IMG/VR virus record: IMGVR_UViG_3300030329_005082
Location: 26,652-90,651 of that record
DNA length: 64,000 bases
Source of the DNA: a virus
Direction: 5' to 3' (one strand)
Shown here: in pieces, positions 4,529 to 63,942 of the stretch
Position numbering within the stretch: position 1 is the first letter of the stretch
Layout of the letters: each line of letters opens with the position of its first letter
Program-made: the position numbers and the translations under genes
The notes under the pieces: generated by a model
What the model was told of the DNA's origin: nothing
What the model saw: the letters and a program-made list of their open reading frames with translations, nothing else
The model's database searches: none

Positions 4529-5011
4529 TTACCAGGGCTGACTGCGGCTCATGGCGTACTTGTTTTTTTCCCACTCAGCTCGTTGGCGCGCCTTTTCTTC
4601 CTCGTGAGAAGACCTAACTCTGTCCTCGGTGTATTTATTTTGGCGGTCTCTCACTTGTGCCACCACGGCTTGCCCCTCTTCACTCCGCACCCACTTCTCC
4701 AATGCGGGGTTATCATCTCTCATCTTTTCTGTTTCTTTGTTTAGCTGGGTGTACTTGTATTTTAGGTTGTTATCGTCCGTGCCGAAGCGCCTCATGAAGG
4801 CGTATTCGGCAGCGAGCAGGGCCGCTTCGGTCGCTTTCTCAACAAACTCCTCTTTTAGTTCTTCGAACTGTTGTCGCTTGGCGCTCCTTTGGCGGTGCTT
4901 TTGTTGGCGGCGCTTGTTCTTGTTCTTTTTTTCACCAAGAAATTCAGACCCAGAACCAGCGAGGATCTCTTCTTTGATAAGTTGCCTAAGAATATCTTTT
5001 GTGAGTCTCAT
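4529..5011 (-). CDS. Leader-bearing protein, probable internal virion protein (coiled coil)
   Basis: 160 residues from ATG 5011, with GGGGAG upstream; the open frame further upstream lies over the neighbouring gene. Starts M-R-L-T-K-D-I-L-R-Q-L-I-K-E-E, a member of the shared leader family, with a candidate cleavage site after IKE (residues 12-14). The rest is very rich in Lys, Arg, Glu and Gln and predicted helical, so it looks like a basic DNA-associated internal head protein. Function inferred from the leader only. Confidence 0.75.
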   Translation of the reverse strand: MRLTKDILRQLIKEEILAGSGSEFLGEKKNKNKRRQQKHRQRSAKRQQFEELKEEFVEKATEAALLAAEYAFMRRFGTDDNNLKYKYTQLNKETEKMRDDNPALEKWVRSEEGQAVVAQVRDRQNKYTEDRVRSSHEEEKARQRAEWEKNKYAMSRSQPW

Positions 5012-5048
5012 TTGTTGCTCCCCTTCGCTATAACTATATAGTTCTGCT

Positions 5049-5306
5049 TTATGCTTTGGGAAAGAGAGCATTCCAAAATCTGGAAAAAATGGAAGAGGAT
5101 TTTTTCGGAGCAAGTTGGTTTTTGGTAACTTCTTCCTGACAGGAAAAGTAGTGCTGCTCTCGGTACTGCCGAAGCAGCCTCTCATCACTTAGAACCCACT
5201 TGCGTAGGCAGTCCCACTCCAACAACTCCTGCGGGGTGCGGAAAGGTTGCGACTCTAAGATGGCAAGTCGTCGTAAAGCAGTGGCTACTTTTATCTCCTC
5301 TAACAA
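5049..5306 (-). CDS. Hypothetical helical protein, TTG start
   Basis: 85 residues. No ATG is available; the TTG at 5306 has AAGGAG 10 bases upstream. Mostly helical, with Trp-containing segments (LLEWDCLRKWVL) and a basic C-terminal end (KKSSSIFSRFWNALFPK). I do not recognise it. It lies between the leader-bearing protein and the aminotransferase, with a short intergenic stretch (5307-5382) on its upstream side. Confidence 0.55.
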   Translation of the reverse strand: MLEEIKVATALRRLAILESQPFRTPQELLEWDCLRKWVLSDERLLRQYREQHYFSCQEEVTKNQLAPKKSSSIFSRFWNALFPKA

Positions 5307-5382
5307 AAGTATATTACTCCTTTGACAGAAGTCAGTTAGATAATAGTAACCATTCCTTTCTTATAATAAATATTACTTGCCA

Positions 5383-6642: not shown

Positions 6643-7196
6643 CTGTCTCCGGTTGAGCCAAGTGTTCCGGTGCCTCGGCTAGTCTCCTTATCATAAATAT
6701 GATCGGATTCCACTAGATCTACATTTGTTGTAATCTTGACGAACACGGCTTGGGCGATCTTATCACCAGCGTGGAGGGTCTGTGTTCGGTCGCTTGGGTT
6801 GTGAAGGTTCACAAAGATTTCTCCTGTGTATCCTCGGTCAACAACGCAGGCTCCCACGACCAGACCTCGCTTGGAAGCGATGCCAGACTTGTTCTTGATT
6901 TCCAGCATGTATCCCTCTGGGACTTCAATCTTTAAGCCAGTTGGGAAGAGTGATGAGCCGTGAGGCAAGACGCTCTCAATCTGCTTTGGGATGTCGTCCC
7001 GTGGCGGGGGGCAGAAAAACAAATCCATGCCGGCATCTGTTGGGTGTGCTCGCACAGGTAGTTTAGCATTCTCGTGAAGTCGTTGGACTCTTACTTTCAT
7101 TTTGTTTCCTTCTCGGTCGGCGCAGGCTGGTTTCAAATCACACCCGCAGTCATAACATTCATCTGCAACATTGAATAAATTTCTTTGATCAATCAT
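6639..7196 (-). CDS. dut: dUTPase with Cys-rich N-terminal extension
   Basis: Hydrolyses dUTP to dUMP. Trimeric dUTPase motifs are present: DAGMDL, the KNKSGIASK motif, VVDRGYTGEI, GDKIAQAVF and the C-terminal RGTGTLGSTG arm. From 7196 there are 185 residues, including about 32 extra N-terminal residues with a C-x2-C-x-C...C cluster. The ATGA overlap with the upstream gene supports 7196. A second ATG at 7100 (MKVRVQRL), after AAGGA, would give an ordinary dUTPase, so both starts may be used. Confidence 0.93.
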   Translation of the reverse strand: MIDQRNLFNVADECYDCGCDLKPACADREGNKMKVRVQRLHENAKLPVRAHPTDAGMDLFFCPPPRDDIPKQIESVLPHGSSLFPTGLKIEVPEGYMLEIKNKSGIASKRGLVVGACVVDRGYTGEIFVNLHNPSDRTQTLHAGDKIAQAVFVKITTNVDLVESDHIYDKETSRGTGTLGSTGDR

Positions 7197-7507: not shown

Positions 7508-7514
7508 TCTCTCG

Positions 7515-40964: not shown

Positions 40965-42044
40965 TCAGTGTTTAAGACCTGCGAGTGTTGCCCAACGATT
41001 TTTTGTTGGGTTCTCATCGGCAGTGCGTTCATCTCTACGATTCCCGCCAAGAATAACTGAGGATGATTTAGATACTGCTTCAGACAATGATTGAGGAGCT
41101 TTCTTTTCTGTGCTCGCCATTGTCTTTTGAAGGGTTTCAAATATCAACCTTGCTTCTTCTACCGACCGTGCCTTATCGACCATCTCAGCAATTTTGTTTT
41201 TTTGCTGCTCATTCAAGGAGGAGTCTCCTAGAACACGATTCGCATACAATAACCTTGCATTTTGCAAGTTTATTTCTTCAAGTGTGGTTTTTGCTGTGCC
41301 AAGGATTCCCTTAAGCTTAGCAATTTCTTTTTTAAGATTCTTATTTTCTTCGGTGAGTTGTTCAGACTTTTGTGCTCTTTCTCGCCAAGCAATATCTTCT
41401 GCTTCCATTCCGTCAGTGTAATCACTGCGAACTAGTTCGGCGTGCTCAGAGTAAGGATCTGCCTCGTGGGGGTGATCTTCTCTGTTCTGTTTTTCAATCT
41501 CGTCGCCCCTGGCTTCATCAATCTCAACTTGATCCTTAGTCTTAACCTCTTCAACAACTTCTGTATTATCTGAAGAAAGCATCTCCCTGAATAGGTCTGC
41601 TAATTCTTCTTCGTTGATTTCAATCTCTTCATCATCTGAGCGGTTGCCTGGCTCTTCATCGGAGACCTCGGCAGCTACCTCTAGATTATCAATCATTTCT
41701 TCGCGGGGCACACCATCATCAGTGCTAGCTTCGCCTGAAGCCAATTCTTTTCCAAGGGTCTTGCCAATATCATTTAAATCAATAACAATGGTTTCATCTT
41801 CGGAAAGATGGGCAGGAGGGGCCTGATCAAGAGTTTCCTCTGCTTCTTCCGGAATCTCTGTTGTGGCTGGTTCTCCTGTTGTGTCCTCAAGTCCAAGATC
41901 AAAATCTTCCTGCTCCAAAAGCTTGCTTACTGCATCACGAACTTCGTCGGAGTATTTCTCAACGACTGCCGTTTCGGCGTTCTTCATTGCAGCTTCACGT
42001 AAGGTTTTTGCGTCAACAATTGCTTGCTCTAGCATATTAGACAT
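40965..42044 (-). CDS. gp22: Prohead core scaffolding protein (gp22-like)
   Basis: 359 residues, very acidic N-terminal two thirds (many Glu/Asp runs), then a coiled coil (~215-330), typical of T4-type core scaffold. Lies directly before the capsid gene. Probably forms the inner core and is degraded by the prohead protease. A candidate late promoter precedes it. Confidence 0.85.
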   Translation of the reverse strand: MSNMLEQAIVDAKTLREAAMKNAETAVVEKYSDEVRDAVSKLLEQEDFDLGLEDTTGEPATTEIPEEAEETLDQAPPAHLSEDETIVIDLNDIGKTLGKELASGEASTDDGVPREEMIDNLEVAAEVSDEEPGNRSDDEEIEINEEELADLFREMLSSDNTEVVEEVKTKDQVEIDEARGDEIEKQNREDHPHEADPYSEHAELVRSDYTDGMEAEDIAWRERAQKSEQLTEENKNLKKEIAKLKGILGTAKTTLEEINLQNARLLYANRVLGDSSLNEQQKNKIAEMVDKARSVEEARLIFETLQKTMASTEKKAPQSLSEAVSKSSSVILGGNRRDERTADENPTKNRWATLAGLKH

Positions 42045-42080: not shown

Positions 42081-42088
42081 ATAAATAG
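42081..42088 (-). promoter_or_regulatory. Candidate late promoter motif CTATTTAT (scaffold-capsid operon)
   Basis: Minus strand AACTATTTATTTTTG, ending 36 bases before the scaffold ATG. No other promoter is evident for the scaffold and capsid genes. Confidence 0.5.
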
Positions 42089-43587: not shown

Positions 43588-43877
43588 TAACGTCTTCTCC
43601 TCTTAAAGTTATCTCTAGCTGTAAATAGTTCGTTTCTTTTTCTATTCACCTGGGCTATGAGTCTTTTCTTTGCTCTTCTTCTTTCCGCGCCCTTCACACT
43701 TGGTTTCGTATAATGGGTGCGGCTCCTAAATTCATCAATGATTCCATCACGCTTCACTTTCTTGCAAAACTTGCGAACCATTTTCTCTGCGTCACCTCGG
43801 CACTCTTCGGCTCGGACGGTCACACAGGTATCAATTCTATTGCTTTTGTTTCTTTTGTGGTTGTGATTTCTTCTCAT
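43587..43877 (-). CDS. rpsU: Ribosomal protein bS21 homologue
   Basis: 96 residues. After a His/Arg/Asn-rich N-terminal arm, VTVRAEECRGDAEKMVRKFCK, KRDGIIDEFRSRTHYTKPS and a Lys/Arg-rich helix follow the bS21 pattern (valine-rich strand, R-F-K-R, then E-R-R-x-Y-x-K-P). bS21 binds near the 16S 3' end and affects initiation. Phage copies are known and may bias host ribosomes toward phage mRNA. ATGA overlap with 43874-44302. The extra N-terminal arm is unusual. Confidence 0.88.
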   Translation of the reverse strand: MRRNHNHKRNKSNRIDTCVTVRAEECRGDAEKMVRKFCKKVKRDGIIDEFRSRTHYTKPSVKGAERRRAKKRLIAQVNRKRNELFTARDNFKRRRR

Positions 43878-44302
43878 CGCTTTTTACTTTCTGATGTTTG
43901 AGCTACGGACCCCCAATGTCCAAATCCGGGGATGCTGCTAATGTCTAGTCCGGCGTCGCCAGATGGCACGTTTGATAAAGCCGACTGCCCTTTGTTCTCC
44001 TGAAGCGGCTGGGTGCCAGCGAAAAACTCAGGGTTGGCAAACTTCTTCTTCAAATCTTCATAATTGTTGGAGGCTACGGCATCCATAACCTCTTTGCGCT
44101 TATCTTCCATCAGCTTGGATGCCTGAGCACTCTGTTGAGCAATTCGCTCCATCGCTGGCGAGGTCTGCTGAGACTCTCTATTCATGTTTATGTTATTCAT
44201 ACCGCTGGCAACTTCTGTAATAATGCCAGACAGAACACCCTCCTCAAAGATGACCTCTTTAATACATTCTTTGATGAGTGACTTGAGTTCCGATTTTTTC
44301 AT
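43874..44302 (-). CDS. Leader-bearing protein, probable internal virion protein
   Basis: 142 residues. Starts M-K-K-S-E-L-K-S-L-I-K-E-C, a short form of the shared leader with IKE at 10-12. The rest is Gln/Ser/Asn-rich and low in hydrophobic residues, with a helical centre (DKRKEVMDAVASNNYEDLKKKF). It sits immediately after the prohead protease gene, a favourable place for a packaged head protein. Confidence 0.7.
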   Translation of the reverse strand: MKKSELKSLIKECIKEVIFEEGVLSGIITEVASGMNNINMNRESQQTSPAMERIAQQSAQASKLMEDKRKEVMDAVASNNYEDLKKKFANPEFFAGTQPLQENKGQSALSNVPSGDAGLDISSIPGFGHWGSVAQTSESKKR

Positions 44303-44317: not shown

Positions 44318-44920
44318 TTATGTGCGTAAAATATCGTTTAGGGCACGGTTGATACGATCTGCCTTGGTGAGACTTGTTAGACGTTCTCTCATTTTGCTTT
44401 CTGCGACCAAGAATGCGCCGGCTGTGCTTGGCTCAGAAACCAAGTCAAAACAAACAAGCTGGAAGTCGTCTTCAACTATGGTCATGCCGTTTTCTTGACG
44501 AGTAGACCCAAGACCACGACTAGAGATTCCAAGCTGAACGCCGCCCTCAACCAGTTGCTTTGCAATCTTGCCAGCAGGCGTGTCCAGAATCTTGATCTTG
44601 CCCATGACGTCATTACCATTCCACCACACCTCAGTAACAAGGTGGCTGACATGTGTTAATCTGACTTCTTGCTTGTCTGGGTGATCTAATTCACCTGTTG
44701 CTCGGCGCTCTTTGACTAGCTTGTCATAGTTCTTCATCTCTCTTTCTAGCAATCCTTTTGGGTAAATTCTCTGGTTTCCGTTTGGTGTGTCGGCTCTCTG
44801 GATTGGTCCCGCCACTATGAGATGAATTCCGTCAATATTACCTTGGCGCTCCGCTTCAGTGAGAAGACTATTGCTGTAATCTAGATTCATAAACTCTTGT
44901 AGAATGTACTTGCTTGTCAT
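44318..44920 (-). CDS. gp21: Prohead core protease (gp21-like)
   Basis: 200 residues. DGIHLIVAGPIQRADTPN, NQRIYP, GELDHP (catalytic His), VTEVWWNG, LGISSRGLGS (catalytic Ser) and VSEPSTAGAF match the T4 gp21 prohead protease family. LLTE at residues 19-22 may be a self-processing site. In T4 this enzyme cuts capsid and internal proteins after L/I-x-E; the leaders in this window fit that rule. Confidence 0.92.
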   Translation of the reverse strand: MTSKYILQEFMNLDYSNSLLTEAERQGNIDGIHLIVAGPIQRADTPNGNQRIYPKGLLEREMKNYDKLVKERRATGELDHPDKQEVRLTHVSHLVTEVWWNGNDVMGKIKILDTPAGKIAKQLVEGGVQLGISSRGLGSTRQENGMTIVEDDFQLVCFDLVSEPSTAGAFLVAESKMRERLTSLTKADRINRALNDILRT

Positions 44921-44966: not shown

Positions 44967-45314
44967 TCAGCGTTGGAACCGCCTGAAAGATACATCCTTC
45001 ATGTACCTATTCAAGTAGTTGGCAAACTCTGTGAAGCCGGCCTCTGCGTACTGTTCCGCCATCCTAGAGGCGAGGACACGGAGACGGTCAGCATCGCCCT
45101 CATTGTGGTGGATGAATACCTCTACTGCATTATTTAGATCGGAGTCCCTCATTTCTGGATCTGTTCTCTCGGAGGCTCTTCCGACCCAATCTTGCCAAGA
45201 GTTCTTTTCATGCGGCCGATCAGTTGGAGGAAGTGAACGCCATGTCTCTTCCGAAAGAACCTTTGAAACTTCTTCTTTGATAATCTTTCTTAGGTGTGAT
45301 TTTGTGATCTTCAT
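44967..45314 (-). CDS. Leader-bearing protein, probable internal virion protein
   Basis: 115 residues starting M-K-I-T-K-S-H-L-R-K-I-I-K-E-E-V, with IKE at 12-14. The mature part is charged and helical, with a His-Asn-Glu-Gly-Asp segment mid-way (FIHHNEGDADRLRVL) and no known catalytic pattern. Adjacent to the prohead protease. Confidence 0.75.
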   Translation of the reverse strand: MKITKSHLRKIIKEEVSKVLSEETWRSLPPTDRPHEKNSWQDWVGRASERTDPEMRDSDLNNAVEVFIHHNEGDADRLRVLASRMAEQYAEAGFTEFANYLNRYMKDVSFRRFQR

Positions 45315-46252: not shown

Positions 46253-47066
46253 CTGACTGATACTCACTTACTAGTTTTTGAAGCTTGAGAATCTTTAGGA
46301 TGTCTTTTTCAGATATGTCTGAAATGTGCATTTCATTTATCTGATCCAATACGGCGTTGGTACTTGCCGACATCTCTTTGTCTTGTTTCACTTCTTCCAT
46401 CTCTAGAGATCTTTCAATAGCCTCTCTTAGGCGGCGTAGCTCTGTGCCCACATGAATACGAAAATCAACTTCGTTTTGCCCAAAAGATATAATATATTTT
46501 CCTAGCAATTTCTGCTGTTCTTCAAGCATATCTGAATATTGCTCATTGAACCTCTTAGCAAAACTAGACACCACCAGACTATCAACTGGCTTCATCTCTT
46601 CTTTACCGTCTGGGTTTGATGTCAACTCTTGAACAAGATTCTGCTCCATCAGAACTCTACTCTTGATGGGTGCCTTGTCTCCAAATATCTGAGCAATGGT
46701 TGCAAAAGATTTATAGTTTGGCACAAAGTTGTCATAAACAGATTTGCCCAATGTTGTGTTTATCTTTTTGATGACTTGGGATTGTTCTTTAAATATCTCT
46801 TGAGCGTCTAACTTGTCATAGGTCTCCTTGGCAAGTTCCAAGACTCTTTTTGCTATATCAGACTCTAGCCCTTGACGTCCGGCAATAGAGTTATAACAAT
46901 CAACCTCTTCATATAGTGGATTGCCTTTGCGAAAATGTTCAGAAAGAATCTTTTTAGTAGCGGCTGTGCGTCGCTTGTTGTTATTTACAACTGACTTTGT
47001 TAGTTCGCGAACCAATGCTTCAAACAAGAAAGCAGTATTTCTCTTTTTGTTATGCTTGACCTTCAT
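46242..47066 (-). CDS. Hypothetical helical protein following the portal gene
   Basis: 274 residues, strongly helical and charged (KKRNTAFLFEALVRELTKSVV at the N terminus). Recalls a conserved protein placed after the portal in environmental T4-like phages (position of T4 gp67/68), but I cannot assign a function. Overlaps the portal gene by 17 bases. Confidence 0.65.
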   Translation of the reverse strand: MKVKHNKKRNTAFLFEALVRELTKSVVNNNKRRTAATKKILSEHFRKGNPLYEEVDCYNSIAGRQGLESDIAKRVLELAKETYDKLDAQEIFKEQSQVIKKINTTLGKSVYDNFVPNYKSFATIAQIFGDKAPIKSRVLMEQNLVQELTSNPDGKEEMKPVDSLVVSSFAKRFNEQYSDMLEEQQKLLGKYIISFGQNEVDFRIHVGTELRRLREAIERSLEMEEVKQDKEMSASTNAVLDQINEMHISDISEKDILKILKLQKLVSEYQSDAD

Positions 47067-48942
47067 CTTTACTTTCCAATTGTTCTATAAGCTTGCCAAT
47101 TTCAAATTGATTATTAAACAAGATCTCTTCCTCTTTATCTACCGACTCTCTAGTTCTGACTATTCCGTTACCTAAAGAATCCATTGGGCGGACAAGCTGT
47201 TTAGATATGGAATCTCCTCCATTAAATAGTCTCCTTTTATTCCTATTGCCAGGCTTTGCAGACTCTCCTCCCGCTTTGGCAAGATCAGACCTTAACCTGG
47301 CTCCTCGTTTTTGGCGACCTCTGGGTTTTCCGTCGTCGCGTTGTCCGGGTTCGGGCTCTGCTAAAAGTGCCCCCGGCTCTTCCTCTGGCAATTCTTCCGT
47401 TGCCAGGTCGTCGCCACCTAACATATCACCAAAGTCATCATCGCCGCCCGCGCCGCCATCGGTGTCTGGTATTGTTCCAGCCTCCTCAATTGCTGATCCG
47501 AACTTGGCGTCGCCATACATCTCAATCTGTATTCTTTCAACTTCTTCGTTGTCCAACTTAAAGATGTTCTTGTAAACCCAACGCTTGGAGAAGTACCCAT
47601 CAGTTGCCGCGCCGGCAATATCAAACTTGGTACGAAGATGTTCCAGCTCTTGAAGTTCAGCAATCTTAGATGGGTTATTCAGAGTTAGATTAAATGAAGT
47701 CAGATCCGAATCGCGGAAACCAAGAGTGTAAAGATGGACAATGCACATCTTTTCTAGCTCGGCAACAACAACCCTCTGAAGTCGTTGAATTGTTCGAGCA
47801 AAACGGATATCCTTCTGGGATAAGGTTGTCTTATCCTCAATTGCATCGGTCTGAGCTAAGTAAGCCTTTGGTACTTTGAGGGCTGAAAATAGCTTATCGC
47901 GAAGATAGTTCACATCATCAATGTCGCCTGTGAACTGTCCGCCGGCCAAAGTTTCAATTCTTGTATTACTAGCCGCTCCACGAATGGGAATATAATAATC
48001 CTCATCAACGCTCATTGCATTATAACGCAAATCAACGCGACCATTGTCTTCATCTACGATTTGGTTGCGCTTCATTTGCGTCTTAACTTGTTCAATATAC
48101 TGTTCTACATCTTCGGGAGAAATGTTTCCAACATCAATATAAAACACACGGCGTTCTGGTGAACGAACAATACGATAAGCCATCATGGCATCTTCAAGCA
48201 AAGTAAGTTGCCGCCAAATACGGCGAGATGGTTCAAGTACCGACGTTCCGTTTGGAACATACTTATCATTTCCCAAAACTCTGAAATGGCAGACTTGCCA
48301 ATTTTCAAAAGTTACACCCTTGTTTCCTTCTGCGCCCTGCCAGAAGTATTGAATATAGTTTGGATTTGTTTTATCTGTGCCCTCAATCCTCTCAATCTCA
48401 CGGACTGGCAGCGGAATAACATTTGTGATTCCAAGTTTGTCATCAATATCCATGTAAAGATAATAATCACCATACTTGCACATGCTGCGTGCCCAGCCAA
48501 ATAAGTTTGACTCAATATTCAACACAGTGTACATCAGTGTTGTCAGAATATCTTTGATCTCACGGTTAGAACAATCAACAGCTACAATAGGATTAAAGAC
48601 TGTTGATGTAGTAATCTCGTCGGCATAAATATCCAAAGTAGAAGCAATTTCGGGCATATACTCCATCTGGTCAAAGTCAGTGTATCTGATCTGCTTGTTT
48701 CTAGCTGTCAGGACTTTGTTGCTGAGTGATCCGAACGGATTGTAATATTCTTTCTTTTTAAACTCGCGACCTGTGCCAGTGGTAAAAGTATACTTTTTAA
48801 CGTCACGGCGGTTCGTGCGGATAACAGCAGGTCTGTCATAATCTACGATAGGCCCACTAAAAAGCCTAGTCAGACTCTTGAATAGTCCTGATTGTTTGTT
48901 GCGAGGATTGTTTCCATCGTTTGAATTATAGTCGTCAGCCAT
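47050..48942 (-). CDS. gp20: Portal protein (gp20-like)
   Basis: 630 residues. DQMEYMPEIASTLDIYADEI, PERRVFYIDVGNI, VDEDYYIPIRG, ETLAGGQFTGDIDDVNYLRDKLF and KDIRFARTIQRLQ are T4 gp20-type portal segments. Forms the dodecamer at the head vertex. The C-terminal ~130 residues are acidic/Gly-rich and then basic, longer than in T4. Confidence 0.93.
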   Translation of the reverse strand: MADDYNSNDGNNPRNKQSGLFKSLTRLFSGPIVDYDRPAVIRTNRRDVKKYTFTTGTGREFKKKEYYNPFGSLSNKVLTARNKQIRYTDFDQMEYMPEIASTLDIYADEITTSTVFNPIVAVDCSNREIKDILTTLMYTVLNIESNLFGWARSMCKYGDYYLYMDIDDKLGITNVIPLPVREIERIEGTDKTNPNYIQYFWQGAEGNKGVTFENWQVCHFRVLGNDKYVPNGTSVLEPSRRIWRQLTLLEDAMMAYRIVRSPERRVFYIDVGNISPEDVEQYIEQVKTQMKRNQIVDEDNGRVDLRYNAMSVDEDYYIPIRGAASNTRIETLAGGQFTGDIDDVNYLRDKLFSALKVPKAYLAQTDAIEDKTTLSQKDIRFARTIQRLQRVVVAELEKMCIVHLYTLGFRDSDLTSFNLTLNNPSKIAELQELEHLRTKFDIAGAATDGYFSKRWVYKNIFKLDNEEVERIQIEMYGDAKFGSAIEEAGTIPDTDGGAGGDDDFGDMLGGDDLATEELPEEEPGALLAEPEPGQRDDGKPRGRQKRGARLRSDLAKAGGESAKPGNRNKRRLFNGGDSISKQLVRPMDSLGNGIVRTRESVDKEEEILFNNQFEIGKLIEQLESKDEGQA

Positions 48943-48944: not shown

Positions 48945-50516
48945 TTATCCTTTCAAAATCCAGCCTAAATCATGCGATCTTCCATCGGTGCCTCGGAACT
49001 TTTGATGCCCTTGGCGATATCCCGCTTGTCCTTCAATATTTGTATTTATTGTTTTTCCAGACACGGAGATGCTATTCAATAAAGCTCTTCTGTATGTTTC
49101 CTCCCGCTTGTTCGCTGTAAGCGCCGTTCCTCTTACCCAGCAACCAATTGAAGCAGCTATAACTAGATCGTCGTTATAGCTCCTCATTGCTTGAGGTCTT
49201 CCATTATGCCAAACAAAAGTCTTAATTTCGTTTGCCAACCTCATTGAGTTAATAGTAATTAGTTTATTTCTCACGAATTCCTCAAACTTAGCAATTACTA
49301 GTGGGCGGGTTTTCATAGACATGGTGAAACCGGGAACTCCACCAATAGCTTCTGCCGTCACTTCATCAACATACTCATGTGTTGATTTTATACTATAATA
49401 CAGATTCTTATAGTCTAAATCTTGAAGCCTGCTTAGCACCCCTACTCCCAAAGAGTTGTTTTCAATTATCAATAAAGCATTGTTATACTCATCCGCCATT
49501 GAAAACAACAATGGAGCAAACATATCTGGCGTTACCTTTCCTTGGTACTCTGCCACTTGCTCCATTGTTTGGGTGTCAAATACGTGTCCGACGCTATAAT
49601 CTGATCCGTCGCCCCTGGCTACGTCAGCTACTAAAATATATTGCCTGTCTGGCTGGGGCTCTTTCCATATCCAATAATTTCTATCAAATCCTGTCTGGTG
49701 TGTTGGTTCTTTGATATTCTCTAATATTATTTTTAGATCGTCCCCGTGAATAACTGTCTCGCCCGAAGCATTGAAGTTGCACTCAAGCTCTTGTGCGATT
49801 TCTCGGCGAGACATGTTTCTGGTCTCTTTCTCAAACCACTCTTGATCTCGCTCAGGGTGTACATCCCACGGCAGACGTATTGTATGAAAGTCGTTCTTTT
49901 CTTCTTCTGCCTCTGTGTATGTTTTGTGGAACCAGTTACCAACACCGTTAGGGGTTGATAGTGCAATACAGCGTCCACCAGTTGACAGCGTGGGGTAAAG
50001 ACCAGCCCACAATTCTTCCATACCTTCCACAAAGGCCGCTTCGTCAACTACCAACAAAGATAATGCCTCAGAACGACCTGCGTCGCCAGAAGTAGAAGAA
50101 GCCTTTACCTGAGAGCCGTTTGACAACTCAAACGAAGTCCGGTTATCAATGCTTATATCTGAGATTTTTAGCCAGCTTGGTAAATTCTTATGAATAGCCT
50201 TGATCTTCTTAACAAGGTTTGTGGCTGTCTGGAGTTTTGTGGCGACGATCAAAACGTTCTTGTCGCGATGAAACAACATCATCCAGCAGACATAAGCTGC
50301 CACACTAGTGGAAATCCCCAACTGGCGAGCTTTCAAGATAACACTAAAACGGTTGTCTTTAAAATCTCTCAGGGTCTCTTCTTGGAAATCATACATATCA
50401 AAAGGAATCAAACCCTTCATAGGGTGTGAAATCTTTGCGTGATTATTACAGAAGTAAACGGGATCTTTTCCACAGCGGACAATCTCCGCCATCATCTCCT
50501 TTTTACTGGATGGCAT
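48945..50516 (-). CDS. gp17: Terminase large subunit (gp17-like)
   Basis: 523 residues. ATPase: Walker A-like LKARQLGIST (~62), Walker B LLVVDEAAF (~154), coupling ALSTPNG (~179). RNase H-like nuclease: LVADVARGDGSDYSVG (~297), IENNSLGVG (~350) and NDDLVIAASIG near the C terminus carry the three acidic residues. Packages DNA through the portal encoded next to it. Confidence 0.95.
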   Translation of the reverse strand: MPSSKKEMMAEIVRCGKDPVYFCNNHAKISHPMKGLIPFDMYDFQEETLRDFKDNRFSVILKARQLGISTSVAAYVCWMMLFHRDKNVLIVATKLQTATNLVKKIKAIHKNLPSWLKISDISIDNRTSFELSNGSQVKASSTSGDAGRSEALSLLVVDEAAFVEGMEELWAGLYPTLSTGGRCIALSTPNGVGNWFHKTYTEAEEEKNDFHTIRLPWDVHPERDQEWFEKETRNMSRREIAQELECNFNASGETVIHGDDLKIILENIKEPTHQTGFDRNYWIWKEPQPDRQYILVADVARGDGSDYSVGHVFDTQTMEQVAEYQGKVTPDMFAPLLFSMADEYNNALLIIENNSLGVGVLSRLQDLDYKNLYYSIKSTHEYVDEVTAEAIGGVPGFTMSMKTRPLVIAKFEEFVRNKLITINSMRLANEIKTFVWHNGRPQAMRSYNDDLVIAASIGCWVRGTALTANKREETYRRALLNSISVSGKTINTNIEGQAGYRQGHQKFRGTDGRSHDLGWILKG

Positions 50517-53574: not shown

Positions 53575-53877
53575 TCAATACGGTGATTTCAAGTGTCCAG
53601 ACTTAAGTCCTAATTTTCTCGCTGCGCCGACGGTCAGTATAGCGTTCTCGCGGTCAAGTTGGTCCTGTGCTTCTTTCCGGGCTTCCGGCGAGAGCTTTTC
53701 ATTGTTGGCAATATCTTGATAAAGGCTTCTGGCTTCGTCTTGTTTCTTCTGAGATAAGCTACCGGGACCTGTTTTGGCAGCAGACATGCCGGGAGGCAGA
53801 ACTTCATCCAGAGCCGATAGAGCCTTGGAAACCTCTTCCTTGATGATTTTTCGGAGTTGGGATTTTGTGAGTTTCAT
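53575..53877 (-). CDS. Leader-bearing protein, probable internal virion protein
   Basis: 100 residues starting M-K-L-T-K-S-Q-L-R-K-I-I-K-E-E-V, IKE at 12-14. The mature part is a short helical, Lys/Glu/Gln-rich protein ending in a basic segment (RKLGLKSGHLKSPY). No known domain. Confidence 0.75.
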   Translation of the reverse strand: MKLTKSQLRKIIKEEVSKALSALDEVLPPGMSAAKTGPGSLSQKKQDEARSLYQDIANNEKLSPEARKEAQDQLDRENAILTVGAARKLGLKSGHLKSPY

Positions 53878-54395: not shown

Positions 54396-54575
54396 TTATT
54401 TTCTTTTAGCCCGTTTATGTATCTGAACGAGTCCTGCCATTACTCTTATATCTTTTCCGTGATAAATAATGGTTGCTACTTTTTCCCAAGTGTGGTATTC
54501 TTTTAGTAGCCCAATTTTCCACCCTTCGGCATCTCCACCCGAGTATTTAAACCTAACAAGATCACCGGCTTTCAT
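54396..54575 (-). CDS. 59-residue SH3-like protein (MKAGDLV)
   Basis: Read from the minus strand in a stretch that otherwise looks empty. M-K-A-G-D-L-V-R-F-K-Y-S-G-G, then WKIGLLKEY and VATIIYHGKDIRV strands and a basic tail (HKRAKRK). ATGA overlap with the preceding SH3-like gene. Same family as the 1130-4163 array; function unknown. Confidence 0.7.
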   Translation of the reverse strand: MKAGDLVRFKYSGGDAEGWKIGLLKEYHTWEKVATIIYHGKDIRVMAGLVQIHKRAKRK

Positions 54576-54799
54576 TTTTTATTTTGTGTGCCCGCAGAAA
54601 CGACAACAATGTCTTCCTCGTGAATATCAATAATGGCACCATGCGGATAGTCTTCTATCATTCTGCTGATAGGCGTAGTCTCGCCGACCCACCAAACATT
54701 CCAGTATCCCGCTATATCACAGGGACCTATCACAAGCCCATATCCCCCCGAGCCACTGGGGTGGAATATGTTGCTTTGTACAAGGTCGCCGGCTTTCAT
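54572..54799 (-). CDS. SH3-like protein, close paralogue of 55497-55706
   Basis: 75 residues from ATG 54799 (ATGA overlap). M-K-A-G-D-L-V-Q-S-N-I-F-H-P, GSGGYGLVIGPCD, GYWNVWWVGETTP, and EDYPHGAIIDIHEEDIVVVS. About 85% identical to the protein at 55497-55706, differing mainly at the C-terminal extension. Recent duplicate; function unknown. Confidence 0.75.
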   Translation of the reverse strand: MKAGDLVQSNIFHPSGSGGYGLVIGPCDIAGYWNVWWVGETTPISRMIEDYPHGAIIDIHEEDIVVVSAGTQNKK

Positions 54800-55020
54800 A
54801 TCTCGCATTTACATTCTTTTATTTTGTTCCGACGATTTCTGACCCTGCACAAAGGGCAGCGAATATAATGTGAATCATTTTCATAAAACATATCCCAAAG
54901 CCTGGGAACCCTCAACACTATTCTCCACGGACCAATAAACCACAAGATACAACACCGAGGTATATTAGAATGTCGTCCACACTCCCAGTGGTATTTTATT
55001 TTATTGAGATACGAAAGCAT
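54796..55020 (-). CDS. Cys-rich hypothetical protein with start inside a repeat
   Basis: Up to 74 residues from ATG 55020 (MLSYLNK), which lies in the degenerate repeat copy; no good ribosome site, so the true start is uncertain. Contains RCC, CPLC and CKC clusters suggesting zinc binding and a hydrophobic Trp-rich middle (ILWFIGPWRIVL). ATGA-coupled to the SH3-like gene. Confidence 0.45.
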   Translation of the reverse strand: MLSYLNKIKYHWECGRHSNIPRCCILWFIGPWRIVLRVPRLWDMFYENDSHYIRCPLCRVRNRRNKIKECKCEI

Positions 55021-55048
55021 ACCCATCTTGACGCTCAATGTCAATAGT
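55001..55048 (-). repeat. Diverged copy of the SbcCD gene 3' end (copy A)
   Basis: Read on the minus strand it still encodes IDIERQDGYAFVSQ plus stop, versus IDIERQDGYAYVNQ plus stop at the end of the SbcCD gene. Changes include two synonymous codons and Y to F, N to S. Ends in the same stop codon. Lies far downstream of the true gene, ahead of an unrelated gene. Confidence 0.85.
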
Positions 55049-55099: not shown

Positions 55100-55432
55100 T
55101 TACCGACGAAGCCGCCCACCGGGTAACGGTTTGCGGGGCACAGCTGTGGCTATCTTCTGTGCAAGTTCATCCCAATCTTCACCAGTAACCTCTAGCAAAT
55201 CACCCAGATCAAGAAGAGTATTTTGTGCATATTCTGGGGTCAGGTGTGCTGGCAGATACCGCATTACGTCAGTATCATTTTTAGCAGCATAGAGAAGGTC
55301 CCAGACGACGCTAGCGCCCATATCTTCAATTCTTTCTATGTATTCTTTGGGTTCAAGTCTTTCTTCTTCGACTAATACTTTCGAAATCTCTTCTTTAATA
55401 ATCTTTCTTAGTTGAGATTTTGTAATTTTCAT
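55100..55432 (-). CDS. Leader-bearing protein, probable internal virion protein
   Basis: 110 residues starting M-K-I-T-K-S-Q-L-R-K-I-I-K-E-E-I, IKE at 12-14. The rest is acidic and helical (EYIERIEDMGASVVWDLLYAA), ending in a short Arg/Gly tail. ATG after GGAGGC, with a candidate late promoter 20 bases upstream. Confidence 0.75.
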   Translation of the reverse strand: MKITKSQLRKIIKEEISKVLVEEERLEPKEYIERIEDMGASVVWDLLYAAKNDTDVMRYLPAHLTPEYAQNTLLDLGDLLEVTGEDWDELAQKIATAVPRKPLPGGRLRR

Positions 55433-55496: not shown

Positions 55497-55706
55497 TTAC
55501 TGCGAGACAACGACTATGTCATCTTCGTGAATATCAATAATTGCTCCGTGAGGATAGTCTTCTATCATTCTACTGGCGGGTGTTGTTTCGCCAACCCACC
55601 AAATATTCCAATATCCGGAAGCATCGCAAGGTCCCATCACAAGTCCGTAACCGCCAGATCCATCAGGGTCAAACAAGTTACTTTGTACTAAGTCTCCGGG
55701 TTTCAC
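55497..55706 (-). CDS. SH3-like protein, close paralogue of 54572-54799, GTG start
   Basis: 69 residues from GTG 55706, sharing the G of the upstream TAG stop (TAGTG). M-K-P-G-D-L-V-Q-S-N-L-F-D-P, GYGLVMGPCD, GYWNIWWVGETTP, IIDIHEDDIVVVSQ. Function unknown. Confidence 0.75.
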   Translation of the reverse strand: MKPGDLVQSNLFDPDGSGGYGLVMGPCDASGYWNIWWVGETTPASRMIEDYPHGAIIDIHEDDIVVVSQ

Positions 55707-56131
55707 TATTCTTTTTTAAAACCTTCAAAGTAGTAAACTGATTCGCACATATAAAGATGGGCGTAGTTTATGGCTTGAAGGCGCAGGGTTCCAAACACCA
55801 TACTTTCATCGTTTGCGTGGCTTGTAACAATCCAATCCATTTGCATTTCCCAAAAAGCAGCATCATTACAATCAAAGGTCGTGCGGGTAGAGCAAGTGTT
55901 AGGTTCCCAGTTTCTTGTATTGAGAGAACATCCAGCATCATCATCAGGGGGCATTGGTGCCCCATCAATCAATTCAGTCTCTATGACTTCCCATACTCTG
56001 CCGCAGTCACCGCTGGTTTCTTCCAGTCGCAGTTCATACATTCCGTTTTGGGTGGATTGCGGGATGTTACACGGCTCCTCCGTACAACCTGCTAATAATA
56101 TAATACAAGCAGCAAATTTATTGATTGACAT
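55706..56131 (-). CDS. Putative lipoprotein, start inside a repeat
   Basis: 141 residues from ATG 56131. N terminus MSINKFAACIILLAGC is a lipoprotein signal with lipobox LAGC, so it should be lipidated and anchored in the cell envelope. The mature part has several Cys, is acidic and unrecognised. The first codons come from repeat copy B, so the repeat supplies both the start codon and the first signal-peptide residues. A superinfection-exclusion or host-surface role is possible; not shown. Confidence 0.65.
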   Translation of the reverse strand: MSINKFAACIILLAGCTEEPCNIPQSTQNGMYELRLEETSGDCGRVWEVIETELIDGAPMPPDDDAGCSLNTRNWEPNTCSTRTTFDCNDAAFWEMQMDWIVTSHANDESMVFGTLRLQAINYAHLYMCESVYYFEGFKKE

Positions 56132-56166
56132 AAGCATAACCATCTTGACGCTCAATGTCAATAGTC
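56118..56166 (-). repeat. Exact 49-bp copy of the SbcCD gene 3' end (copy B)
   Basis: Identical to 56763-56811 over 49 bases and ending precisely with the SbcCD stop codon. Here it is not attached to the SbcCD gene but lies between the methyltransferase region and the lipoprotein gene. Confidence 0.95.
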
Positions 56167-56172: not shown

Positions 56173-56208
56173 TTATTTGTTGCCTTCAAAATAATCACCG
56201 ACTTTCAC
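56173..56208 (-). pseudogene. Truncated start of a KVGD-family gene
   Basis: GTG at 56208 after a purine-rich site opens MKVGDYFEGNK and then stops, 11 codons in all. It overlaps the end of the methyltransferase gene exactly as array genes overlap each other and runs into repeat copy B. Looks like a family member cut off by recombination. Confidence 0.5.
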
Positions 56209-56776
56209 TTATCTCTGGGTCGTAAAAAGTTTGGCTCATTGGACCTTTGTAATCCTTCTTCCAGTAAATCGCACCTATACCATTTCCCATAGGAAATCCT
56301 AATTTACTACCAGTTCCATACCACCTTATTTCTTTTATCCCACCATATTTTTGGGCGGATGTTATAAGTCCATAAGCCATAAATGCTTTCCAAACAGGGA
56401 TAAGATACACTACATTATCAGCCACCTCAAACGAGTGAAGGAAGAATTTTCGTGCGAGAGAGTATGGTGGATTAGAAATAATCCAGTCCACTGGTTTGTC
56501 CCAATCAAAGAAGTCTCGTCCCTCCGTAATTTCACACCATTCTGCTGTTGGCATTAGATTAGTAAAAACTCCATCGCCTCGGCAAGGCTCTAATATATTA
56601 CCTGTCGGGGCAAAGTGGCGTACCATATCTTCCGCAACCCAATCAGGCGTCATAATGATATCGTTGCCCTTTGGCTTGTTCTTATCCTTTTGCCTCTTTT
56701 TTGAAAGTTGTTGTCGGTACTCACGCTCTCGCTCGTCCTCATTTTGCGGGGACGAAATATTATTATTGATTGACAT
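56195..56776 (-). CDS. DNA adenine/cytosine amino-methyltransferase
   Basis: 193 residues from ATG 56776. Motif I-like LEPCRGDGVF (~60) binds AdoMet and SNPPYSLARKFF (~99-110) is the catalytic NPPY of amino-methyltransferases. The N-terminal ~40 residues are Lys/Glu/Arg-rich linker. Probably modifies phage DNA against host restriction. The start lies inside repeat copy C and lacks a normal ribosome site; a later ATG (MTPDWVAEDM) is possible. Confidence 0.8.
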   Translation of the reverse strand: MSINNNISSPQNEDEREREYRQQLSKKRQKDKNKPKGNDIIMTPDWVAEDMVRHFAPTGNILEPCRGDGVFTNLMPTAEWCEITEGRDFFDWDKPVDWIISNPPYSLARKFFLHSFEVADNVVYLIPVWKAFMAYGLITSAQKYGGIKEIRWYGTGSKLGFPMGNGIGAIYWKKDYKGPMSQTFYDPEISESR

Positions 56777-56811
56777 AAGCATAACCATCTTGACGCTCAA
56801 TGTCAATAGTC
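56763..56811 (-). repeat. Native 3' end of the SbcCD gene, source of the 49-bp repeat (copy C)
   Basis: Encodes the last 15 SbcCD residues plus stop. Repeated exactly at 56118-56166 and in diverged form at 55001-55048. Confidence 0.95.
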
Positions 56812-59993: not shown

Positions 59994-60254
59994 TTACAGA
60001 GGGTCTACTCTATTAACATAAGCTTGAAGGTCGCCAAGTAACTTATGAAGTTTTGATTTCATTTCTTCTACCGTTTCCAAAGCCTCTCCTTCAATTCCCG
60101 GCATCTCTTTGAGAATAGAAACATCACCAAGAAGTTTTGCAACACTTGATAAAACATTGTGTGCTGAATCCGCAGGGACCTGGCTCTCATGTGCTATTGT
60201 TTCGGAAATCTCTTCTTTGATGATTTGCCGTAGTTGTGATTTGGTGATTTTCAC
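59994..60254 (-). CDS. Leader-bearing protein, probable internal virion protein, GTG start
   Basis: 86 residues from GTG 60254, one base after the previous stop. Starts M-K-I-T-K-S-Q-L-R-Q-I-I-K-E-E-I, IKE at 12-14. The mature part is helical and amphipathic with no known domain. The longer frame upstream lies inside the previous gene. Confidence 0.7.
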   Translation of the reverse strand: MKITKSQLRQIIKEEISETIAHESQVPADSAHNVLSSVAKLLGDVSILKEMPGIEGEALETVEEMKSKLHKLLGDLQAYVNRVDPL

Positions 60255-61098: not shown

Positions 61099-61107
61099 TA
61101 TAAATAG
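61099..61107 (-). promoter_or_regulatory. Candidate late promoter motif CTATTTATA
   Basis: Minus strand AACTATTTATAAAG, ending 22 bases before the Cys-rich peptide ATG, directly after the site-2 protease stop. Confidence 0.5.
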
Positions 61108-61110
61108 TTC

Positions 61111-61914
61111 CTAGATGCCAGCAAGGCGAAACACGTCGGAAGTTATTGCCAGTGCAAAGATAGCGAAGACCAAAACCGCACCAATAATATTTAGTGCGTT
61201 TCGTGTCTTTACGGCTAGTTTTTTGCGTCTTATTCCTTCTACCACAGAAATACCTATATGTCCACCATCTAATACTGGAATTGGTAAAAGGTTTATAACA
61301 CCGAGATTGATGGAGAAAAAGGCAATCCAATCTATTAAGAATCCCCAGTCTCCTGTTTCTGCACTGCGCTTTCTTGCTTGTTCCGTAAATTCATAAACAG
61401 CAACGGGTCCGCCAACTTCTTTAATACTCATTGGTTCTTGGCGTGGTATCGTTACAGCCTCCCAAATACTTTTATACATATTGGTTGCTATATTATGAGA
61501 ATATCCAGCCGCCTCTATTACGCCAATGCGATGAGGTTGGGCTCCTTCCGGAACATAAACGTCGGGATATGGTTGTCCGACCAACATCATGAAATATAAT
61601 GGCCAAGGTAACAATAGATTGAATACCGGACCCATCACAGCTATAAAAGCTCGTTTCCATGCCGACACCCCCCAAAAAGACGTGGGATCATTTCTCTTGT
61701 TGTGATAATCATCTTCTCCACGAGGTTTGATATATCCACCTAGCGGCAGCAATGACAGTCGCCATTCAGTTCCCCACAGTTTCTTTTTGAGGAGGACTTT
61801 GCCGAACCCTATTGAAAAGCTGTCAACACCAACACCCACAACACGGGCTGCGACGAAATGTCCAAGCTCGTGGACAAAGATTACTAAAACGATTATTCCA
61901 AGAAAGGTAAGCAT
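61111..61914 (-). CDS. Site-2 (RseP/S2P-type) intramembrane metalloprotease
   Basis: 267 residues from ATG 61914 (GAGG 7 bases upstream). HELGH at 15-19 in the first membrane helix and the second zinc ligand in PVLDGGH near the C terminus are the M50 active site. Membrane segments near 1-20, 80-105, ~195-215 and ~240-260. Much shorter than E. coli RseP (450) and without an obvious PDZ domain, so a minimal S2P. Cuts substrates within the membrane; the target is unknown. Confidence 0.9.
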   Translation of the reverse strand: MLTFLGIIVLVIFVHELGHFVAARVVGVGVDSFSIGFGKVLLKKKLWGTEWRLSLLPLGGYIKPRGEDDYHNKRNDPTSFWGVSAWKRAFIAVMGPVFNLLLPWPLYFMMLVGQPYPDVYVPEGAQPHRIGVIEAAGYSHNIATNMYKSIWEAVTIPRQEPMSIKEVGGPVAVYEFTEQARKRSAETGDWGFLIDWIAFFSINLGVINLLPIPVLDGGHIGISVVEGIRRKKLAVKTRNALNIIGAVLVFAIFALAITSDVFRLAGI

Positions 61915-62363
61915 AATATGTCCTCTTCGCATACGTTCTGGGAACGGAGTTCGTACTTGGGAACACCATATCCCTTAATATCCCAAACTTCTTTTACTCC
62001 GGGTGGAAGCCTGTGCTCTATCGGAGTCCAAAATTTAATGTGATTATATATCTTTTTATTTTCTGCCTTCAATTGCTGTATCTCTATGTTCTGTTGTTTG
62101 ATGACGCTTTCCAAATTGTAAAGAGCGTGGCTCGCAGCCTGTTCAAGTCGCTCTTCAATTCGGCTCTCATTCACAATATATAAAAGGAGACCCATAAAAA
62201 TCGTACAGACCACAGTTGCGACAACCGAAGTCCAAACGACTGCCGAAAGGTAGTTGGTTTTTACTTTCTTGGCGGGCGGCGAGACATCAATAATCTCAGG
62301 CTCGTACATAGAATTACGAGCGTCTTCTTGCATTTTTCTGTAAAAATCCCTTTCCCTACTCAT
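61893..62363 (-). CDS. Single-pass membrane protein with coiled coil
   Basis: 156 residues. Basic and Pro-rich N-terminal 40 residues, membrane helix ~39-63 (AVVWTSVVATVVCTIFMGLLLYI), then a coiled coil (~67-105) and a C-terminal domain with two late Cys. Overlaps the site-2 protease gene by 22 bases, so it could be its partner or substrate. A CTATTTAC motif touches the start codon; a downstream ATG at 62333 may be the real start. Confidence 0.6.
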   Translation of the reverse strand: MSRERDFYRKMQEDARNSMYEPEIIDVSPPAKKVKTNYLSAVVWTSVVATVVCTIFMGLLLYIVNESRIEERLEQAASHALYNLESVIKQQNIEIQQLKAENKKIYNHIKFWTPIEHRLPPGVKEVWDIKGYGVPKYELRSQNVCEEDILCLPFLE

Positions 62364-62365
62364 AA

Positions 62366-62374
62366 AGTAAATAG
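62366..62374 (-). promoter_or_regulatory. Candidate late promoter motif (variant CTATTTACT)
   Basis: Minus strand AACTATTTACTTT abutting the ATG at 62363. The spacing is too short for a leader, so either the start is the ATG at 62333 or this site is not functional. Confidence 0.3.
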
Positions 62375-62393
62375 TTTGCGAAAGGGGTATTTG

Positions 62394-63077
62394 TTATACA
62401 ATGATCAAACGGTTAGAGTTCATCAGTGCGTCTATTACTTCTGTACTATTCTTTTTATATACCTTTGAAAGCGAGCTATCTGCCCAATCTTTACCAAAAC
62501 TTCTGATTGTTTTGCTCTGATCGCAGTCATCTATTTCATAGTCAGGAGTTAGTTGAGGCACTGACTTGTTGAGGTCTCTTGGGTGGTTAGGGTTTGTATC
62601 TAATTGTTTTTTCTGAATATCACCCCTGTCTAGGTATTTGTCCCAAACAGCCATGGCATAATCTGAGACCATCACTCTGTCTGGCATCAGTCCACCACCA
62701 TTCTTTGTGGACCACTCAAGAGCAACCTCATACAGTAGAGGACCCCAACCACGCTCAACATATGCTCCAAGAATAACATACCCTCCGTGACAGGGCCCTT
62801 CATAATCATCATCGGTTTTCTCAATCGTAACATGACCATGAGGATAGCCGGTCTTTATCACCTTTCTATCTTTACGAATTGTAGAATCATCGCTGGACAA
62901 TTCAGAATACTGTTGAGTCTCGGGATCTTCTATTCGGACATATTTAAAAATTATGCGACCGGACGTAACTAGGATAGTAACCCCAACATCTTCTGGTAGT
63001 GCATCAAGTTTTTTTTGTATACGGGGATCAACACCTTCCTTCAAAAACTTGCGCCACTCTGTTAGTAATTTTTTCAT
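62394..63077 (-). CDS. Leader-bearing protein with acetyltransferase-like region, probable injected protein
   Basis: 227 residues from ATG 63077 (ATGA overlap). Leader M-K-K-L-L-T-E-W-R-K-F-L-K-E-G, LKE at 12-14. The central GGYVILGAYVERGWGPLLYEVALEW and LMPDRVMVSDYAMAVWDKYLDR resemble a GNAT-like region found in environmental phage proteins; the match is by pattern only. C-terminal ~60 residues unrecognised. Confidence 0.65.
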   Translation of the reverse strand: MKKLLTEWRKFLKEGVDPRIQKKLDALPEDVGVTILVTSGRIIFKYVRIEDPETQQYSELSSDDSTIRKDRKVIKTGYPHGHVTIEKTDDDYEGPCHGGYVILGAYVERGWGPLLYEVALEWSTKNGGGLMPDRVMVSDYAMAVWDKYLDRGDIQKKQLDTNPNHPRDLNKSVPQLTPDYEIDDCDQSKTIRSFGKDWADSSLSKVYKKNSTEVIDALMNSNRLIIV

Positions 63078-63550
63078 TCTATGTTGTCCCAAAATTTTGT
63101 GGCTCGGTCGTCATAAAACTCGCAGGTGTTAGTCCAGTTGGTATTATTGTCTATGACCTCTTTGATGTAGGCCAAACTATCAGGGTCATCAATCACATAA
63201 CTAAACACTAGGTAGTCTCTGCCTTCTTTGGGTTTTTCCGATGTGTCGGTAGTCAATCCCAGCGGAGCCACGGAACCAACTTCTTCTCGGGAGATTTCGC
63301 CACGGGTGTCGTAGTATTTTCCGTTGCGATATATAGCCACATGGTAAAGATCAAACTCTTCCGAGGGGTCGCCTGAATCTAGCTCTGGGTCTGAGTCCAC
63401 CACGAGAACAACTTCTGTGCCTTTTATCCCACGGTTGATTGCCTCTTGTAGAAGAGCAACGGCTAGTGTTCCACAGTTTCCGTATAGTTCAGGATCAAGG
63501 CTTTCCTCTTCCTTCAAAAACTTCCGCCACTCTGTTAGTAGTTTTTTCAT
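63074..63550 (-). CDS. Leader-bearing protein with possible cysteine peptidase/amidase site, probable injected protein
   Basis: 158 residues. Leader M-K-K-L-L-T-E-W-R-K-F-L-K-E-E. Then YGNCGTLAVALLQEA (C26), LYHVAIYRNGKYYDTRGE (H70, D81): a Cys-His-Asp arrangement as in papain-like or transglutaminase-like folds. If active it would cut or modify a host target after injection. Family not identified. ATGA junctions on both sides. Confidence 0.6.
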   Translation of the reverse strand: MKKLLTEWRKFLKEEESLDPELYGNCGTLAVALLQEAINRGIKGTEVVLVVDSDPELDSGDPSEEFDLYHVAIYRNGKYYDTRGEISREEVGSVAPLGLTTDTSEKPKEGRDYLVFSYVIDDPDSLAYIKEVIDNNTNWTNTCEFYDDRATKFWDNIE

Positions 63551-63563
63551 TTTTTCTTTTTTT
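63513..63563 (-). repeat. 51-bp repeat spanning a gene junction and leader, copy 1
   Basis: Identical to 63905-63955. Covers the tail of the upstream gene, the ATGA overlap and the leader codons up to FLKE. Confidence 0.9.
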
Positions 63564-63942
63564 CCACGATTTCTATAGACTGAGGAACCAGCCTGTCGTC
63601 TGGACTATCTTCATCTCCATCCCAGAAGAAGATGTTTTTGTAATCCTCGGGGTTAGGCCACTCTGGGCTTATCTCATAATCATAGACAGGTCTGATGGCT
63701 GGATCTTGAACTTGTAAAATCACAGGATCTTTCAAAGATTTGTCCCAGCCGCCTTTTTGGGCATAAGATTCAGCCGCACCAAGTGTTCCAAAGAAGTAAG
63801 CCCCCAGTCCAATATCTCCCCACTCAGGCCAAAAGCCCTCATCCATAATTGTAGCAGCAGTTTCACGGTCAGTAACGTGGTAGTAAGTTCCACCCGAACC
63901 TTCTTTCAAAAACTTCCGCCACTCTGTTAGTAGTTTTTTCAT
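63547..63942 (-). CDS. Leader-bearing ADP-ribosyltransferase-like protein (Alt-like, probable injected effector)
   Basis: 131 residues. Leader M-K-K-L-L-T-E-W-R-K-F-L-K-E-G (LKE 12-14), then a small ART-like domain: GGTYYHVTDRETAATIMDEGF (nucleotide-site His/Thr and first helix), GLGAYFFGTLGAAESYA (the G-x-Y-F-F-alpha pattern of ART/KptA-like folds) and a final VPQSIEIV strand. T4 Alt is a packaged, protease-trimmed, injected ADP-ribosyltransferase, so leader plus ART is a strong parallel. Catalytic residues are not certain. Confidence 0.6.
   Translation of the reverse strand: MKKLLTEWRKFLKEGSGGTYYHVTDRETAATIMDEGFWPEWGDIGLGAYFFGTLGAAESYAQKGGWDKSLKDPVILQVQDPAIRPVYDYEISPEWPNPEDYKNIFFWDGDEDSPDDRLVPQSIEIVEKKKK

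Follow-up and report, generated by a model that had tools for sequence, protein, structure and literature searches.

Proteins led by a common peptide

Why should a dozen otherwise unrelated proteins of one virus begin with variants of the same short peptide? The question is raised by a 64,000-nucleotide stretch of an IMG/VR virus record, IMGVR_UViG_3300030329_005082, referred to here as the window, which covers bases 26652-90651 of a 178,630-base record, from a large marine phage, that was analysed in full. A sequence-only reading of the window had proposed that 12 proteins share an N-terminal leader of the kind by which phage T4 packages internal proteins and which the T4 gp21 protease then removes. 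As argued below from sequence comparison, the leaders are very probably T4-like capsid-targeting propeptides removed by a head protease, and are used on far more proteins than in T4.

All 12 proteins do start with a leader once the correct start codon is chosen; the genes lie on the minus strand, and the coordinates by which they had been named are their low (stop) ends. The leaders fall into class T (MKITKSQLRKIIKEE and variants) and class W (MKKLLTEWRKFLKE and variants), and a third class, R (MNLLREYIRELLxE), was found in 33 stretches of IMG/VR. The proteins of the window are given here, with a slash at the end of the leader or at a second site; the one at 43874 is listed with the head genes.

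4529-5011, minus strand: class T leader protein, MRLTKDILRQLIKE/E, 160 residues; the open reading frame called from a GTG at 5188 is too long
44967-45314, minus strand: class T leader protein, MKITKSHLRKIIKE/E, 115 residues, adjoining the protease
53575-53877, minus strand: class T leader protein, MKLTKSQLRKIIKE/E, 100 residues
53877-54353, minus strand: protein with a weak class T leader, MSITRARAREIIEE/V, 158 residues; second site LQE/A
55100-55432, minus strand: class T leader protein, MKITKSQLRKIIKE/E, 110 residues; second site LVE/E
59994-60254, minus strand: class T leader protein, VKITKSQLRQIIKE/E, GTG start, 86 residues
60256-60723, minus strand: class T leader protein, MKITKSYLRKLIKE/T, 155 residues
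60710-60976, minus strand: class T leader protein, MKITKSQLQKIIKE/E, 88 residues
62394-63077, minus strand: class W leader protein, MKKLLTEWRKFLKE/G, 227 residues; by alignment and leader swap, its cargo family also stands behind class R leaders
63074-63550, minus strand: class W leader protein, MKKLLTEWRKFLKE/E, 158 residues; invariant NCG, YH and YYDxRG motifs in the alignment
63547-63942, minus strand: class W leader protein, MKKLLTEWRKFLKE/G, 131 residues; homologous to L112 and L287, two leader proteins of relatives that look like ADP-ribosyltransferases

Two of the 12 leaders are weak, those at 53877 (MSITRARAREIIEE) and at 43874 (MKKSELKSLIKE), and the second is two residues shorter, as had been described. 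The full record holds 28 leader proteins, 16 of them outside the window, with about 18 leaders in class T and about 10 in class W. The class W variants include MKTSSWRKFLLE, MKNHFDSWRKFVIKE and MSDVSIHKLSRNWRKYLSE, and the class W genes lie mostly in one run from window position 62394 to genome position 98556. No recognisable replication or tail gene in the gene list carries a leader.

The leaders are not chance resemblances, because the scores of a profile scan and the counts of a profile-free comparison are both far above background. With a profile derived from the same leader sequences that it then scored, a genome-wide scan gives both main leader classes scores of 31.9-50.6, and only 15 of 84,057 non-start positions reach a score of 12. 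When the N-termini of unrelated start-codon candidates are compared without a profile, 109 similar pairs are found at the start, as against 4 at offset 20 and 2 at offset 40. The motif [LI]xE is present in all 12 proteins of the window, with its E at residue 12-14, and a motif ending at residues 9-20 is found in 27 of the 28 leader genes and in 28 of 171 other minus-strand genes (Fisher p = 5e-17, a descriptive value given that the leaders had been picked by sequence).

Leader copies within the genome differ in 43% and 34% of codons, compared with about 61-63% expected. Because the copies share codons more than expected, the leader has spread within the genome by copying. A class T protein at L125:4233-4916 (minus strand) carries a tandem pair of leaders (MKLTKSQLRKLIKEEI...KIKLTKSQLANIVKEEI).

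Conservation at the predicted cut site

The cut site was examined with a search that fixed residues 1-10 only and left residue 11 onward free, which gathered 134 class W and 109 class T non-redundant proteins. In class W, residue 11 is Y or F in 91% of the proteins, residue 12 is L, I, V or M in 97%, residue 13 is free, and residue 14 is E in 85%. In class T, I12 and E14 are each present in 91%. Conservation drops to background by about residue 16 in class W and about residue 17 in class T. The motif [LI]xE occupies residues 12-14 in 75% of class W and 89% of class T proteins, compared with 1.0-1.2% elsewhere, and [LIVM]xE occupies them in 26 of 29 class R proteins. The leaders thus end in the gp21 motif [LI]-x-E, and this motif, left out of the search, is their best-conserved feature (75-89% versus about 1%), which argues for the previously suggested rule that cleavage would follow [LI]-x-E.

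In class W proteins that lack E14, the motif often occurs one to a few residues further on (YMLKE, FIIKE, YILKE, YLLTE, YLIKE, FRNNILNE). Within the cargo family of the protein at 62394, the site moves by one residue through an insertion before it, and the motif is kept (FLKE/G, YLLSE/G, FVLTE/G, MLTE/S). Class T proteins have a second [LI]xE at residues 15-24 in 50% of cases, versus 8% at residues 40-49. This second site fits multiple cuts per propeptide as in phiKZ, for which the relevant part of PMC9026906 describes propeptides that are cut several times each.

The same part of that source assigns targeting in T4 IPIII to residues 4 and 7 and processing to residues 8 and 10, and states that D at the last motif position stops processing but leaves targeting intact in T4 (PMC9026906). 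The residues conserved in hydrophobic character or identity in classes W, T and R (8, 11, 12 and 14) have the spacing of T4 residues 4, 7, 8 and 10, although four positions are too few to prove descent.

Exchange of leaders and the nature of the cargo

Modularity was tested by cutting the proteins at the site and comparing the cargos, which sorted them into 120 families; in 19 of these, two or more leader classes occur. In several cross-class pairs the similarity starts one or two residues after the E, as where L552 of class R and L229 of class W share a HAD-like cargo. A swap at the E is also found for the EVKFxGILKLMP cargo of L567 and L276 and for the T/W pair L569 and L112. Some cross-class cargo matches, especially between T and W, are internal, with no clean swap visible. 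The natural swaps lend indirect support to the idea that a leader could suffice to package a foreign protein.

Pfam searches with 124 class W proteins matched Pkinase, NUDIX, AAA_33, Zeta_toxin, ART-PolyVal, Peptidase_C39, GNAT and HD, as well as an exonuclease and a tRNA-ligase-type phosphodiesterase domain. Class T proteins, whose cargos are mostly small, gave almost no match. In the present record, a GNAT domain is found in the leader protein at genome 92522-92953, and weak matches were obtained to ART-PolyVal at genome 91875-92525 (4e-4, below the cut-off) and to a nucleotidyltransferase at genome 173465-174256. Two homologues of the protein at 63547 match ART-PolyVal, L287 above the cut-off (1.3e-07) and L112 below it (2.8e-04). 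The cargo domains are of host-modifying kinds, which is no more than suggestive of injection into the host. The same record encodes a class W protein of 1,868 residues, with a NUDIX domain and a phrog_11974 region, at genome 92950-98556 (L010:2350-7956, minus strand).

In an AlphaFold model of the protein at 62394, residues 1-20 have a confidence score (pLDDT) below 50, and the cargo, from about residue 21, is mostly at 79-96. Foldseek comparison of the models of the proteins at 63074 (pLDDT 62) and 62394 (pLDDT 76) with the PDB gave no match, and papain-like and GNAT folds that had been guessed by eye (papain-like for 63074) were therefore dropped as unsupported.

Head genes and the S77 protease

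The genes for head formation lie in the same window.

39228-40940, minus strand: major head protein, T4 gp23-related family (phrog_138, 1.7e-68)
40965-42044, minus strand: scaffold-like protein, so called from its position directly upstream of the major head protein gene; 3.3 [LI]xE per 100 residues
43874-44302, minus strand: leader-like MKKSELKSLIKE protein, neighbour of the protease, assessed by conservation and [LI]xE density
44318-44920, minus strand: prohead protease, Peptidase_S77 of the T4 gp21 type (PF03420, phrog_207)
47050-48942, minus strand: portal protein (phrog_213, 1.9e-75)
48945-50516, minus strand: terminase large subunit (phrog_2, 7.9e-55)

The gp21-like protease that had been proposed at 44318-44920 is confirmed by matches to PF03420 Peptidase_S77 (1.3e-28, 100.3 bits against a cut-off of 27) and to phrog_207, 'head maturation protease' (4.7e-53); its own N-terminus has [LI]xE at E9 and E22. 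By their profile matches, the major head protein, portal and terminase belong to T4-related families. The scaffold-like protein has no phrog match and no database hit. Among cultured phages, the head protein and the protease point to Microcystis phage Mel-JY01, Flavobacterium phage immuto and Rhodothermus phage RM378 as the nearest.

The protein at 43874-44302 has homologues that extend past the leader in at least 51 related loci, near the protease in the loci inspected, and contains 4.2 [LI]xE per 100 residues compared with 1.35 genome-wide. In both its [LI]xE richness and its protease neighbourhood it is like T4 gp67 and gp68, core proteins that are degraded and whose genes stand beside gene 21. 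Because it is kept in so many related loci and is rich in [LI]xE, it is probably a gp67/gp68-like prohead core protein, and its assignment as injected cargo was set aside. That part of the sequence-only reading is given up, and its claim of a larger set of leader proteins than in T4 stands, with 28 genes here and a third class elsewhere. Class T leaders may be imitations of the protein at 43874, which would be their model for docking.

The S77 protease occurs in the same genome as the leader, in this phage and in all 27 leader-bearing records of at least 150 kb, and in none of 34 random viral contigs, so the expected tracking of the leader with a gp21-type protease is observed. All 11 class R records of at least 100 kb also encode it. 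Among records of 40-140 kb it was detected in 11 of 42 with a leader and in 0 of 20 random ones (p = 0.012). Counted search by search, S77 is present in 19 of the 33 records found first, most of which are of class T; in 13 of the 44 from class W, as well as in both metagenome-assembled genomes (MAGs) tested; and in 19 of 31 further leader records. All 14 S77-negative records of the first searches also lack the head-protein family. The three records of class W that encode a head protein but not S77 have the head protein gene at a contig end. Most S77 negatives are read as fragments, that is, as incomplete records.

Leaders in other genomes

Searched as degenerate DNA in IMG/VR, the class T and class W patterns each match more than 115 stretches, and leaders of classes T, W and R precede hundreds of unrelated proteins there. 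In 85,000 bacterial and archaeal genomes the class T pattern matches only 5 stretches, on three marine MAG contigs; the leader is thus essentially absent from cellular genomes, in keeping with the original proposal. One of the three contigs has 101,404 bases, equal in length to one matching virus record, and looks like a mis-binned phage contig. The leader-carrying contigs PBIO01000025.1 and NHDW01000006.1 (L453-L457), in MAGs labelled Halobacteriovorax and Methylococcaceae, appear to be mis-binned phage genomes.

Comparison by tblastn of leaders of 20-25 residues with 50,697 phage records is insensitive: the class T leader matched a single phage, the uncultured LR756508 of 484 kb, which also gave the best match to the head protein; the class W leader matched nothing, and the leader of Flavobacterium phage immuto matched only immuto itself. 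Immuto, a cultured phage with S77 whose host is Flavobacterium sp. LMO8, has six genes of the same architecture, two for MKKSQLR..I proteins and four for M(E/A)N.F.L(K/R)(K/S)FL(V/T)E proteins. In its gp3, gp76, gp77, gp92, gp80 and gp94 the predicted cut would follow FLVE or FLTE, or a second site (KLINE, LLKE). When the leader strings were searched for literally in the literature, no paper mentioning them was found.

Proposed mechanism and alternative explanations

If the leaders are capsid-targeting propeptides, the 14-residue N-terminal peptide, with hydrophobic or aromatic residues at positions 8, 11 and 12, would bind the prohead core during head assembly, such that the protein behind it becomes enclosed in the head. 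The S77 protease would then cut after [LI]-x-E at residues 12-14, and in class T often also at a second site near residues 18-22. The cut would release the mature cargo within the head, to be injected alongside the DNA. Since the leader alone would suffice for entry, it could have been attached to about 27 unrelated proteins, including predicted enzymes. Core binding, cleavage, packaging, injection and the roles of the cargo are steps that we infer from sequence patterns.

Several points weigh against this proposal. Class T cargos are without known domains as well as small. Residue 14 of the 1,868-residue protein is D instead of E; by analogy with T4 the protein may be targeted yet left uncut at this site. 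A number of records of 40-147 kb have a leader but neither S77 nor the head-protein family, and are only presumed to be partial. Furthermore, leader and S77 both follow the T4-related head lineage, and their co-occurrence is in part phylogeny.

The small size and lack of domains of class T proteins, together with the second [LI]xE site in many of them, could also mean that most or all are core components consumed in maturation like T4 gp67 and gp68, with only classes W and R as cargo. The protein at 43874 fits such a role. This explanation is nevertheless judged unlikely for class T at large, given that class T sets are numerous and variable between relatives and that a few cargos stand behind both T and W leaders; the cargos of classes W and R are folded enzymes, one of them modelled confidently only after the leader. 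The leaders are also predicted to be helical, at low confidence, with regularly spaced hydrophobic residues, as would suit amphipathic helices by which the proteins attach, inside the infected cell, to the host membrane or another phage-built structure, with neither cleavage nor packaging. A docking helix, however, needs no E at a fixed distance after L or I with a free residue between, and would leave unexplained the retention of the motif when its position shifts, the abrupt end of conservation after the site and the association with S77, which makes it very improbable. Finally, the codons shared among leader copies might suggest that the 5' ends are kept for reasons at the DNA or RNA level, such as recombination hot spots or translation initiation, and that the peptide is functionless. 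This is scarcely credible, because hundreds of proteins keep the amino acids although the codons drift, and the three leader classes, different in sequence, all close with one peptide motif; the leader as an RNA-level signal was set aside on the codon comparison and the shared motif.

Comparison with known systems

Capsid-targeting propeptides of the T4 type share with the present leaders a short N-terminal peptide, the [LI]-x-E end, an S77 protease, T4-type head genes and variable cargo, as far as the T4 system (IPI-III, Alt and the gp21 protease) is covered in the sections drawn on from PMC9026906 and PMC5512222; the same sections describe T4 Alt as an ADP-ribosyltransferase. The present leaders differ in having 14 residues rather than 10, other sequences, at least three classes swapped on the same cargos and 28 tagged genes rather than a handful. 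The phages phiKZ, 201phi2-1 and SPN3US, with gp175/gp245 proteases, are similar in that cleavage follows the E of a short motif whose middle residue is free, in that each propeptide has several sites and in that many internal proteins are ejected, but their propeptides are mostly long, and no shared short tag is reported in the portions of PMC9026906 and PMC10052503 that concern them. In P1, N-terminal residues of DarB (more than 9, at most 30) direct a foreign protein to the capsid (PMC9024508).

Polyvalent proteins, in the account excerpted from PMC5512222, have an overlapping domain repertoire (ART, GNAT, peptidases, ParB-like) and are predicted to be packaged and injected. They differ in being multi-domain single proteins, for which that account gives no short shared targeting leader; the present cargos are mostly separate small proteins under one tag. 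Polyvalent proteins carry several conflict-related domains in one polypeptide, whereas in the leader proteins of the window, at 86-227 residues, no second domain was detected, and only the 1,868-residue protein could qualify. The concept of a capsid-targeting peptide is therefore known from T4 and P1. As far as the literature searched shows, the scale, the several interchangeable classes and the use on many enzymes in marine phages are new.

Upstream sequences and neighbouring genes

The T4 late promoter TATAAATA was not found on the coding strand upstream of leader genes. The sequence CTATTTAT stands upstream of the scaffold-like gene and four leader genes. The coding strand of the genome has 17 copies of it, for example at window positions 42088, 54390 and 55461 (minus strand), and the opposite strand a single one; 11 copies lie within 60 bases of a start. 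As a candidate late promoter it is only suggestive.

Other genes lie among those for leader proteins.

61111-61932, minus strand: membrane protein, unusual for a phage; its motifs HELGH and NLLPIPVLDGGH suggest by eye a site-2 (RseP/M50-type) metalloprotease
54796-55044, 55706-56161 and 56195-56806, minus strand: three adjacent unrelated open reading frames that share LTLSVKMxMLxSINK at the 5' end; this upstream repeat is possibly a regulatory element that is being read as protein
54572-54808 and 55497-55706, minus strand: near-identical small proteins (KxGDLVQSNxFxPxGSGGYGLV), part of a wider xxGDLV small-protein family along the genome

Implications for large marine phages

There is perhaps an even chance that effectors delivered from the head are sorted by a general system of address tags in large T4-related marine phages. 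In such a system, each phage would inject two dozen or more proteins, new enzymes would be recruited continually under interchangeable leader classes, the classes would possibly be read by different core proteins, and class T would mimic the N-terminus of the protein at 43874 (MKKSELKxxIKE). If the leaders do act as proposed, a sequence rule would find head-packaged, injected phage proteins from genomes, most of them without a recognised function, and the number of proteins delivered with the DNA would be testable from sequence and one mass-spectrometry run. Hundreds of marine phage proteins that now lack an annotation would then have to be considered for roles in early host takeover or counter-defence, and the leaders would be ready tags for loading proteins into phage heads.
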